From positions 1,197,501 through 1,261,500 of the forward strand of contig NC_135187.1 in NCBI RefSeq assembly GCF_041146795.1: DNA of 64,000 nt, in the 5' to 3' direction. How positions within the stretch are numbered: the stretch's first letter is position 1; each line of letters opens with the position of its first letter. The notes beneath the pieces were generated by a model. That model ran no database searches. It saw only the letters and a list, made by a program, of their open reading frames with translations, and was not told the origin of the DNA. The position numbers and the translations under genes were made by a program. Shown here in pieces: positions 10,374 through 53,281 of this stretch. This DNA comes from Maylandia zebra. Lineage: Eukaryota; Chordata; Actinopteri; Cichliformes; Cichlidae.

Positions 10374-13300
10374 TTAAGAATATGAGCTAAGAACATGTGG
10401 TATTAGAGCCAGACCTAGGGAAAGAAAGCTGAAGTTGTTAACAATAGCAGAGGAGGTGGTATTTGTTGTGGTAGTTGTGGTTGATGCTTTAGTTGGGGTT
10501 AATGTTGCTGTAGTTGTTGTTGGAGCAGCAGCGGTTGATGCCGCAGTTGTGGTTGTTGGGGCGGCAGTTGTGGTTGTTGTTGGAGCCGCAATTGTAGTTG
10601 TTGTGGGAGCAGCTGTAGTTGTTGTTGGAGCAGCTGTGGTTGTGGGCGTAGTTGTGGTTGTTGTCGGTGAGGAAGCTGTGGATGATGCCGCAGTTGTGGT
10701 TGTTGTTGGGGCGGCAGCTGTGGTTGTTGTTGGAGCAACTGTAGTTGTTGTTGGAGCAGCTGTGGTTGTTGTTGGAGCCGCAATTGTGGTTGTTGTTGGA
10801 ACAGGTGTGGTTGTTGTTGAGGCGACAGTTGTGGTTGTTGTAGAAGCAGCTGTGGTTGTTGTTGGGGCAGTTGTGGTTGTTGTTGGGGCAGCAGCTGTGG
10901 TTGTTGTTGGAACAACTGTAGTTGTTGTTGGAGCAGCTGTGGTTGTTGTTGGAGCCGCAATTGTGGTTGTTGTTGGAACAGTTGTGGTTGTTGTTGAGGC
11001 GACAGTTGTGGTTGTTGTAGAAGCAGCTGTGGTTGTTGTTGGGAAAGCTGCAGTTGTTGTTGGAGCAGCTGTGGTTGTGGGTGCAGTTGTTGTTGTTGTT
11101 GTTGTTGTTGTTGTTGTTGTTGTTGGGAAAGATGTGGTTGTTGTTGTGGCGACAGTTATGGTTGTTGGTGGTGCAGCTGTAGTTGTTGTTGGAGCAGCTG
11201 TGGTTGTGGGTGCAGTTGTGGTTGTACTTCGGGCAGCTGTGGTTGTTGTTGGAGCTGCTGCAGTTGTGGCAACAGTTGTGGTTGTTGTCGGAGCAGCTGT
11301 AGTTGTTGTTGGGGCAGCTGTGGTTGTGGGTGCAGTTGTTGTGGTTGTTGTTGGAGTAGCTGCAGTTGTGGCCGCAGTTGTGGTTGTTGTTGGAACAGTT
11401 GTGGTTGTTGTTGAGGCGACAGTTGTGGTTGTTGTAGAAGCAGCTGTGGTTGTTGTTGGGGCAGTTGTGGTTGTTGTTGGGGCAGTTGTGGTTGTTGTTG
11501 GGGCAGCTGAGGTTGTGAGGGCAGTTGTTGTTGTCGGTGAGGAAGCTGTGGATGATGCCGCAATTGTGGTTGTTGTTGGAGCCGCAATTGTAGTTGTTGT
11601 GGGAGCAGCTGTAGTTGTTATTGGAGCAGCTGTGGTTGTGGGTGTAGTTGTGGTTGTTGTCGGTGAGGAAGCTGTGGATGATGCCGCAGTTGTGGTTGTT
11701 GTTGGGGCGGCAGCTGTGGTTGTTGTTGGAGCAACTGTAGTTGTTCTTGAAGCAGCTGTGGTTGTTGTTGGAGCCGCAATTGTGGTTGTTGTTGGAACAG
11801 TTGTGGTTGTTGTTGAGGCGACAGTTGTGGTTGTTGTAGAAGCAGCTGTGGTTGTTGTTGGGAAAGCTGCAGTTGTTGTTGGAGCAGCTGTGGTTGTGGG
11901 TGCAGTTGTTGTTGTTGTTGTTGTTGTTGTTGTTGTTGTTGTTGGGAAAGATGTGGTTGTTGTTGGAGCAGTTGTGGTTATTCTTGGGGTGGCAGTTGTG
12001 GTTGTTGGTGGGGCAGCTGTGGTTGTGGGTGCAGTTGTGGTTGTTGTTGAAGCTTCTGTAGTTGTTTGAGCAGCTGTGGTTGTGGCGACAGTTATGGTTG
12101 TTGGTGGTGCAGCTGTAGTTGTTGTTGGAGCTGCTGCAGTTGTGGCAACAGTTGTGGTTGTTGTCGGAGCAGCTGTAGTTGTTGTTGGGGCAGCTGTGGT
12201 TGTGGGTGCAGTTGTTGTGGTTGTTGTTGGAGTAGCTGCAGTTGTGGCCGCAGTTGTGGTTGTTGTTGGAGCAGATGTCGTTGTTCTTCGAGCAGCTGTG
12301 GTTGATGTGGGTGCAGTTGTGGTTGTTGTTGGAGCCGCAATTGTGGTTGTTGTTGGAACAGTTGTGGTTGTTGTTGAGGCGACAGCTGTGGTTGTTGTAG
12401 AAGCAGCTGTGGTTGTTGTTGGGGCAGTTGTGGTTGTTGTTGGGGCAGCTGATGTTGTGAGAGCAGTTGTTGTTGTCGGTGAGGAAGCTGTGGATGATGC
12501 CGCAATTGTGGTTGTTGTTGGAGCAGCTGTGGTTGTTGTTGGAGCCGCAATTGTAGTTGTTGTGGGAGCAGCTGTAGTTGTTATTGGAACAGCTGTGGTT
12601 GTGGGTGTAGTTGTGGTTGTTGTTGTTGGGGAAGCTGTGGTCGTTGTTGGAGCAGTTGTGGTTATTCTTGGGGTGGCAGTTGTGGTTGTTGGTGGGGCAG
12701 CTGTGGTTGTGGGTGCAGTTGTGGTTGTTGTTGTAGTTGTTGTTGGAGCAGCTGTGGTTGTGGCCGCAGTTGTGGTTGTACTTCGGGCAGCTGTGGTTGT
12801 TGTTGGAGCAGTTGTGGTTGTTATTGGAGCTGCTGCAGTTGTGGCAACAGTTGTGGTTGTTGTTGGAGTAGCTGCAGTTGTGGCCGCAGTTGTGGTTGAT
12901 GTGGGTGCAGATGTCGTTGTTCTTCGAGCAGCTGTGGTTGATGTGGGTGCAGTTGTGGTTGTTGTTGGGGCAGATGTCGTTGTTCTTCGAGCAGCTGTGG
13001 TTGATGTGGGTGCAGTTGTGGTTGTTGTTGGAGCCGCAATTGTGGTTGTTGTTGGAACAGTTGTGGTTGTTGTTGAGGCGACAGCTGTGGTTGTTGTAGA
13101 AGCAGCTGTGGTTGTTGTTGGGGCAGTTGTGGTTGTTGTTGGGGCAGCTGATGTTGTGAGAGCAGTTGTTGTTGTCGGTGAGGAAGCTGTGGTTGTTGTT
13201 GGAGCCGCAATTGTAGTTGTTGTGGGAGCAGCTGTAGTTGTTATTGGAACAGCTGTGGTTGTGGGTGTAGTTGTGGTTGTTGTCGGTGAGGAAGCTGTGG

Positions 13301-52037: not shown

Positions 52038-53281
52038 ATGATGATGAAGATCTGTGCCATCCTACTTCTGTTTGTGGGTAAGTGTAAGAAAATAACCACA
52101 AATCATTCTGTGTGCAGGAGATGGATTTGAAATTTGGTGTTAATGTAAATTGTATCCATCATTAACCCTCTGAATCAGCCTCAGTCAACACACAGATTTC
52201 AAGCTCGACTGCAACCACAGGGGCTCCAACAGCAACCACAGCTGCTACAACAGCAAACACAGGTGCTACAACAGCAACCACAGGGGCTCCAACAGCAACC
52301 ACAGGGGATCCAACAGCAACCACAGCTGCTACAACAGCAACCACAGGTGCTACAACAACAACCAGAGGGGATCCAACAGCAACCACAGCTGCTACAACAG
52401 CAACCACAGGTGCTACAACAGCAACCACAGCTGCAACAACAACAACCACAGCTGCTACAACAGCAACCACAGGGGCTCCAACAACAACCACAGCTGCTCC
52501 AACAGCAACCACAGGGGCTACAACAACAACCACAGCTGCAACAACAACAACCACAGCTGCTACAACAGCAACCACAGGGGCTACAACAACAACCACAGGG
52601 GCTCCAACAGCAACCACAGCTGCTACAACAACAACCACAGCTGCTACAACAGCAACCACAGCTGCTACAACAGCAACTACAACTGCAGCAACAACTACAA
52701 CTGCTCCAAACACAACTACAACTGCAGCAACAACAACTACAACTGCTCCAAACACAACTACAACTGCAGCAACAACAACTACAACTGCTCCAAACACAAC
52801 TACAACTGCAGCAACAACTACAACTGCTCCAAACACAACTACAACTGCAGCAACAACAACTACAACTGCTCCAAACACAACTACAACTGCAGCAACAACA
52901 ACTACAACTGCTCCAAACACAACTACAACTGCAGCAACAACAACTACAACTGCTCCAAACACAACTACAACTGCAGCAACAACAACTACAACTGCTCCAA
53001 ACACAACTACAACTGCAGCAACTGCAGCAACAACAGCCACAACTGCAGCAACAACAACTACAACTGCTCCAAACACAACTACAACTGCAGCAACAACAGC
53101 CACAACTACAACTGCAGCAACAACTACAGCTGCTCCAACAACAACTATAACTGCAGCAACAACAACCACAACTGCAGCAACTGCAGCAACAACAACTACA
53201 GCTGCCAAAGCGGCTACAGCTGTAAATGAAATCAGCCTGACTTCTGTCATAGTGACAGTCATAGCTGCTGCACTTGTATAA
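52038..53281 (+). CDS. Threonine-rich mucin-like protein with N-glycosylation-site repeats
   Basis: Coding exons 52038-52077 and 52179-53281 (phase-1 intron, GTAAG donor, AG acceptor), 380 aa. A non-coding exon ends at 51678. Exon 1 codes MMMKICAILLLFVG, differing from the 32.3 kb gene at few positions. The mature chain starts ASVNTQISSSTATTGAPT. Its first half is TTATTGAPTATTAAT-type repeat. The second half has eight tandem 14-residue units (one is 13) plus one more, each containing APNTTTT, so each carries an N-T-T glycosylation sequon. It ends AVNEISLTSVIVTVIAAALV, a hydrophobic GPI-type or membrane tail. It is predicted to be an extracellular, densely O-glycosylated coat protein, also N-glycosylated in this member. 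No cysteine is seen in the mature chain, and no named gene is recognised. Confidence 0.82.
52690..53085 (+). repeat. 42-bp coding tandem repeat in the third mucin-like gene
   Basis: The word 'gctccaaacaca' starts at 52703, 52745, 52787, 52826, 52868, 52910, 52952 and 52994 (steps of 42, once 39) and again at 53066. Units are nearly identical, so the array expanded recently. All steps are multiples of three. Confidence 0.9.

Follow-up and report, generated by a model that had tools for sequence, protein, structure and literature searches.

We focused our attention on a 64,000-nucleotide (nt) stretch of the Maylandia zebra genome (NCBI RefSeq assembly GCF_041146795.1, contig NC_135187.1, positions 1,197,501 to 1,261,500 of the forward strand), hereafter called the window, in which three threonine-rich genes, here named A, B and C, appear to be built on one template. 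The explanation that best accounts for them, to which we assign a probability of roughly 0.7, is that this haplochromine cichlid carries a local family of O-glycosylated, probably glycosylphosphatidylinositol (GPI)-anchored mucin-like proteins, which arose by duplication and repeat expansion. Each gene would comprise a TATA-type promoter, a non-coding exon 1, a short exon for the signal peptide and a single large exon that holds the repeats, and its product would enter the secretory pathway. Dense O-glycosylation would turn the Thr-rich array into a stiff, sugar-coated rod, while the C-terminal hydrophobic tail would be exchanged for a GPI anchor. The result would be a brush of glycans, about 100 to 1800 residues long depending on the gene, displayed on the cell surface or shed into mucus. 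After duplication, the genes may have been lengthened or shortened by in-frame repeat slippage or by unequal crossing-over. Expression, O-glycosylation, the GPI anchor and a barrier function are what we infer for these genes from their DNA.

Direct reading and splicing of the loci placed gene A at 16055-10374 on the minus strand (1864 amino acids), gene B at 32270-32808 on the plus strand (147 amino acids) and gene C at 52038-53281 on the plus strand (380 amino acids). The coordinates and lengths proposed in a first-pass annotation of this DNA were thereby borne out, together with the 40-nt coding exons, the phase-1 introns and the hydrophobic tail beginning with VN that it had described in all three genes. 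In the common plan, a 40-nt coding signal exon is followed by a phase-1 GTAAGT intron and by a single Thr/Ala/Pro repeat exon that runs to the stop codon; introns 2 measure 87 (A), 95 (B) and 101 nt (C), with GTAAGT donors and AG acceptors. The same annotation had intron 2 splitting a final Gly codon in each gene. The phase-1 split is present in all three, but the codon is Gly only in A (G/GT), and Ala in B and C (G/CC).

Similarity between the genes extends upstream of the coding sequence. B and C share a block of approximately 200 nt (63% identity with gaps, E 3e-10) containing TTGTTCAGCACCTGAT, TATAAAA, ACAG(C/T)TGGA(A/C)TC and a GTAAGT donor, and the sixteen-base element of this block occurs just twice in the window, upstream of B and upstream of C. 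The counterpart in A consists of CATAAAAAG, ACAGTTGGAATCAGTG and GTAAGT. When the promoter segments (171, 171 and 186 nt) were compared against 500 dinucleotide shuffles, the observed score was reached by 0/500 for A-B, 1/500 for A-C and 0/500 for B-C. A putative acceptor lies 20 (A), 17 (B) and 20 nt (C) ahead of the ATG, where other acceptor candidates are equal or better in pyrimidine content. These genes probably have three exons, the first one being non-coding; both the non-coding exon and its splicing are deduced from the DNA. Based on the shared TATA-type element, putative 5' exon, GTAAGT donor and acceptor, A, B and C look like three-exon paralogues rather than chance frames, and the putative promoter element, 5' exon and acceptor in all three genes are a new addition to the earlier description, making its case stronger than the letters alone had allowed. 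The promoter element TTCAGCACC may resemble a known repressor half-site.

Duplication followed by repeat expansion, as put forward in the first-pass annotation, is well supported by homology in the promoter, 5' exon, signal exon, intron and tail, which is strongest between B and C, and by repeat periods that are unlike between the three genes. In DNA alignments, B and C are 77% identical across 132 nt that take in 5' flank, exon and intron (E 3e-26); across 77 nt of the tail their identity is 81% (E 2e-16). At the protein level, the score of their last 28 residues was reached by 0/2000 shuffles. A and B align over 46 nt (E 3e-6). Neither a profile of the three signal exons (next match E 0.43, on the opposite strand of C) nor one of the B and C tails (next matches on the strand opposite to C itself, with E 0.025, and elsewhere, with E 0.052) revealed a further convincing copy in the window; a fourth family member in the window was rejected, as the signal-exon, tail and promoter comparisons yielded none.

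Several results weigh against a family of coding genes with anchored products, and they are considered here together with the alternatives that they favour. Regarding common descent, the box ACAGYTGGAATCRGTG, when at most 3 mismatches are allowed, occurs 5 times across the window, where 2.52 occurrences are expected, and 13/100 shuffles reach 5; as the box alone is not rare, the case depends on its position between the TATA element and the donor. Furthermore, the codons that differ between B and C are mostly non-synonymous, both in exon 2 (3 non-synonymous, 2 synonymous) and in the tail (7 non-synonymous, 2 synonymous), indicating that the tail retains its character but not its exact sequence. 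Gene A raises the question of whether only B and C are true paralogues, with A representing an independent Thr-rich mucin gene that became alike by convergence, a proposal compatible with either view of the anchor. The A tail gives no convincing DNA alignment with the tails of B or C, its protein-level similarity to the C tail over the last 28 residues is not significant (181/2000 shuffles reach the score), and BLAST gives weak similarity between the promoters of A and C (E 0.32). On the other hand, A and C have 73 nt of exon 2 and its 5' untranslated region (UTR) in common (E 6e-9), A and B share the promoter and non-coding exon region (E 4e-4 by BLAST, in addition to the shuffling result given above), and the tail character is common to A and B, the score of their last 28 residues being reached by 0/2000 shuffles. 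We regard a convergent A as highly improbable.

A coding gene structure, shared ancestry, an open frame and constraint at codon position 2 can be read from the sequence itself. Taken by itself, an open Thr frame says little about coding: NCN codons, which account for 91% of the codons in the repeat exon of A, 73% in B and 85% in C, are two changes away from a stop. In A, the other frames contain 4 and 21 stop codons on the coding strand and, on the opposite strand, 59, 4 and 86; the corresponding numbers are 3 and 4 versus 0, 7 and 2 in B, and 0 and 1 versus 0, 37 and 1 in C. Per-site change rates relative to a 21-nt consensus, counted over units with at most 7 mismatches, are better evidence: codon positions 1, 2 and 3 changed at 0.21, 0.066 and 0.274 in A (228 units), at 0.234, 0.065 and 0.286 in B (11 units), and at 0.253, 0.075 and 0.198 in C (44 units). 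When consensus C bases alone are considered in A, the rates become 0.404, 0.066 and 0.452, with positions 1 and 3 each represented by one site of the 21-nt unit, and position 2 is thus approximately six times less changed than positions 1 or 3. As the repeat units share ancestry, no p-value is claimed for this bias, and a chi-square, which treats units as independent, carries no weight.

It is also conceivable that the loci are non-coding or decayed, that is, minisatellites that remain open because ACN/GCN/CCN repeats rarely mutate to stops. The distance of NCN codons from a stop speaks for this, as do the additional open frames of the arrays (two in C, one per strand, and one in B, on the opposite strand). 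The codon-position bias is also weak in the near-identical window pairs of A (n = 36), with 16, 10 and 22 differences at positions 1, 2 and 3. Moreover, searches of a protein database with the last 40 residues of B and with those of C found no relative at E 10, so no orthologue backs conservation. These searches covered close relatives of B or C, with that tail and within 0.55-1.75 times the length, with 100 candidates in one and, in the other, the best 7994 candidates (those with most shared words) scored, so that diverged relatives could escape. A control with the protein of the neighbouring ring1 gene retrieved 2562 proteins from the same database, the named entries among the 120 listed being all fish by name; the database does hold many fish proteins. 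Against non-coding loci stand the start codon, splice sites, promoter element and in-frame tail, all intact in 3/3 copies, and the constraint at position 2. Gaps in self-alignments of A, which are multiples of 3 in 1294/1599 cases, point in the same direction, although this excess is partly inflated by the 3-nt rhythm of the repeat itself. Altogether, non-coding or decayed loci seem very unlikely, and an account by chance frames, which merited serious consideration given how readily NCN repeats remain open, was rejected as the principal explanation in view of the shared promoter, splice sites, tail and codon-position bias.

The predicted products of A, B and C have the sequence features of mucin-like (PTS-domain) proteins, namely a hydrophobic N-terminus, from which a signal peptide is predicted, and tandem Thr/Ser/Pro-rich arrays. 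Outside signal and tail, the cores contain 91-92% P/T/S/A and 54-61% Ser plus Thr, with few aromatic residues, and their charged residues number 29 (A), 6 (B) and 3 (C). N-x-T sequons amount to nine in C (eight of them at 13-14-residue spacing), six in A and none in B, and Cys residues to 0, 0 and 1 in A, B and C, respectively. The window holds 10 candidates running from an ATG to a phase-1 GTRAGT donor, 7 of which are starts within the A, B and C signal exons, and these exons have the highest hydrophobicity of all (3.87, 3.56 and 3.52). An unrelated exon candidate of the same type lies at 3065-3122 on the plus strand (phase-1 ATG-to-GTGAGT); it encodes the hydrophobic peptide MYIRVSRSSLLFLCILLMF (3.41) and was not matched by the signal-exon profile.

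By eye, the three tails can be placed in one register of small residues, a spacer with VN, and 14-17 mostly hydrophobic residues. The mean hydropathy of the last 18 residues is 1.95 in B, 1.85 in C and 1.21 in A, and by this measure B and C rank 11th and 13th among the 323 open reading frame (ORF) ends. GPI signals are characterized by a hydrophobic stretch that reaches the last residue, with no cytoplasmic tail behind it. In B and C the hydrophobic stretch extends to the final residue, with no basic residue or cytoplasmic tail following, an arrangement that would suit a GPI signal more than a membrane-spanning segment followed by a cytoplasmic tail. The same family might instead encode fully secreted, soluble mucin-like proteins without a GPI anchor, the tail being cleaved or simply a plain hydrophobic end. 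This would agree with the A tail, which is only moderately hydrophobic (39th of the 323 ORF ends for the last 18 residues, 37th for the best 14-residue stretch) and ends in SSYS, but not with the B and C tails, nor with the apparent homology between the A and B tails in what would be the expected form of a GPI signal. We consider soluble products unlikely. The secreted or GPI-anchored glycan carrier suggested in the first-pass annotation is consistent with the sequence by inference, with the qualification that, as a GPI signal, the tail of A is weaker than the tails of B and C; a part in surface defence or in coating egg or skin, also suggested there, would be conjectural.

The features on which this interpretation rests are collected in Table 1.

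Table 1. Features of genes A, B and C in the window. The 5' ends of the putative exons 1 are not fixed, and their listed start positions are approximate.
Feature	Positions	Strand	Remarks
Gene A, exon 3	10374..15928	-	Signal peptide end, Thr/Ala/Pro array (period 21 nt), hydrophobic C-terminal tail VNNFSFLSLGLALIPHVLSSYS, stop
Gene A, intron 2	15929..16015	-	87 nt, phase 1, GTAAGT..TTAG
Gene A, exon 2, coding part	16016..16055	-	Predicted signal peptide MMVRVVIILFLFV + G
Gene A, exon 2, 5' UTR part	16056..16075	-	Behind putative acceptor TTTTGAAG; acceptor inferred, others possible
Gene A, putative non-coding exon 1	16549..16618	-	Includes ACAGTTGGAATCAGTG; donor GTAAGT at 16548
Gene A, TATA-like element	16623..16631	-	CATAAAAAG
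Gene A, candidate poly(A) signal	10084..10089	-	AATAAA, 284 nt past stop
Element common to B and C	31526..31538 (B), 51525..51537 (C)	+	TTCAGCACCTGAT, upstream of TATA box
Gene B, TATA box	31561..31567	+	TATAAAA
Gene B, putative non-coding exon 1	31592..31649	+	Includes ACAGTTGGACTCTGTG; donor GTAAGT at 31650
Gene B, exon 2	32253..32309	+	17 nt 5' UTR (putative acceptor AAACAG), 40 nt coding (MTTKIFAILLLFV + G)
Gene B, intron 2	32310..32404	+	95 nt, phase 1
Gene B, exon 3	32405..32808	+	Short Thr/Ala array (63-nt unit, 2.1 copies, 98%), tail VNEVSLVSVTVAIIAAALL
Gene C, TATA box	51570..51576	+	TATAAAA
Gene C, putative non-coding exon 1	51611..51678	+	Includes ACAGCTGGAATCGGTG; donor GTAAGT at 51679
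Gene C, exon 2	52018..52077	+	20 nt 5' UTR (putative acceptor TTTAAAG), 40 nt coding (MMMKICAILLLFV + G)
Gene C, intron 2	52078..52178	+	101 nt, phase 1
Gene C, exon 3	52179..53281	+	Thr/Ala array (21/42-nt periods; 9 N-x-T sequons), tail VNEISLTSVIVTVIAAALV

The first-pass annotation had found no named family that fits these genes exactly, and this stands for the sources consulted: with B, C and the ORF of A exon 3 as queries, Pfam returned 0 families at E 0.1, the protein searches with the B and C tails gave no relative, and no name for the family was present among the literature matches listed. The genes can nevertheless be compared with known systems. CD24 and CD52 are vertebrate GPI-anchored mucin-like glycoproteins composed of a signal peptide, a short, heavily glycosylated Ser/Thr-rich peptide and a GPI signal. 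They resemble A, B and C in form only (signal peptide, Ser/Thr-rich peptide, GPI-type end), but they are very short and have no repeat array, gene A encoding a product more than 10 times longer. Fish antifreeze glycoproteins are secreted O-glycan carriers with Thr/Ala-rich tandem repeats, in runs of Thr-Ala/Pro-Ala tripeptides. Despite this likeness in secreted Thr/Ala-rich repeats meant for O-glycans, an antifreeze glycoprotein was rejected, as A, B and C lack runs of at least 3 such tripeptides, contain more Thr than Ala, and have a hydrophobic tail. A gel-forming or SEA-type transmembrane mucin was also rejected, based on the lack of VWD, cysteine-knot, SEA or EGF matches in Pfam and on the Cys counts.

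In humans, MUC21 and MUC22 are located on chromosome 6 within the major histocompatibility complex (MHC). By their description in PMC13345508, they share with the cichlid genes a large repeat exon and an arrangement as a clustered pair; MUC21 is counted there among the tethered mucins, whereas the cichlid genes show no cytoplasmic tail and adjoin ring1. According to PMC3680472, the gilthead sea bream protein I-Muc is likewise a fish mucin-type glycoprotein without a clear mammalian orthologue, but it combines a SEA domain with a transmembrane segment and a cytoplasmic tail, while Pfam gives no domain in the cichlid genes. A parallel in process comes from a recent review, PMC12776774, which mentions fish antifreeze glycoproteins in brief and holds that mucins have arisen repeatedly where secreted genes gained repeats ("mucinization"). 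As there, a signal exon and a repeat exon that gains Thr/Ser repeats would set the size of the product by repeat number; that work, however, concerns mammalian proline-rich genes, and the cichlid has three paralogues with a GPI-like tail. The trio fits the pattern of mucins arising by repeat gain in secreted genes.

The surroundings of the trio were also analyzed. Exons of ring1 at approximately 57.1-59.65 kb, joined by hand, encode a protein that is 99% identical over 98% of its length to a cluster named after Pundamilia nyererei (labelled RING2-A) and 92% identical to a protein of Oreochromis niloticus; the medaka match is named RING1, and the solved structural relatives are RING2. The ring1 match would very likely place the window in an East African haplochromine cichlid. 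Near 62.9 kb, a putative rps18 gene was read from its translation on the minus strand. The MHC class IA region of Atlantic salmon includes RING1, RPS18 and VPS52 (PMC1971071), and the word "mucin" occurs 0 times in the main texts of the fish MHC-region papers PMC1971071, PMC1309616 and PMC2846915.

The window also contains repeated elements, probably transposable. Copies of approximately 314 nt at 23042-23352 and 50394-50707 are 99% identical and carry the same 85-nt tandem repeat, suggesting a young element, whereas inverted copies are found at 23746-24127 and 30005-30386 (near-identical, 99%) and at 29534-30007 and 39455-39924 (92%). A reverse transcriptase domain was detected in 5/10 long ORFs scanned, at 18421-19995, 37847-39265, 46534-48537 and 8429-9142 on the plus strand and at 30829-31296 on the minus strand; the first three additionally match the Pfam family ALKBH8_N. 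An ORF at 42037-42516 (plus strand) weakly matches the transposase DNA-binding domains BrkDBD and HTH_Tnp_Tc5. One reverse transcriptase ORF, used as query against a phage collection, gave one distant match, and 2 matches of an 18-nt pattern in viral contigs were taken as chance. Scanning the window for Rfam families and for tRNAs gave no hits; a sub-threshold Rfam match to MIR398 at 62232-62329 on the minus strand (27.5 bits versus a gathering threshold of 55) was also taken as chance.

The general kind of product, a mucin-like glycoprotein, is already known. A more far-reaching proposal, which we hold to be unlikely and speculative, is that these genes encode a cichlid speciality, namely MHC-linked GPI-anchored glycan brushes whose height is set by repeat number and which evolve fast, perhaps serving pathogen exclusion or gamete recognition in the cichlid radiation. 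Signs of fast evolution would be the gene-specific repeat units and, in C, the N-glycan sites gained along with successive repeats of 13-14 residues. Cichlids are known to have radiated rapidly, and the neighbours of the trio have counterparts that are MHC-linked in other fish. Our results also suggest that a protein set may include the neighbouring genes and still lack repeat-rich mucin genes. If expressed, A, B and C would constitute a compact natural series (147, 380 and 1864 amino acids, on one template and with one promoter type) in which the evolution of mucin repeat length, and its effect, could be followed.

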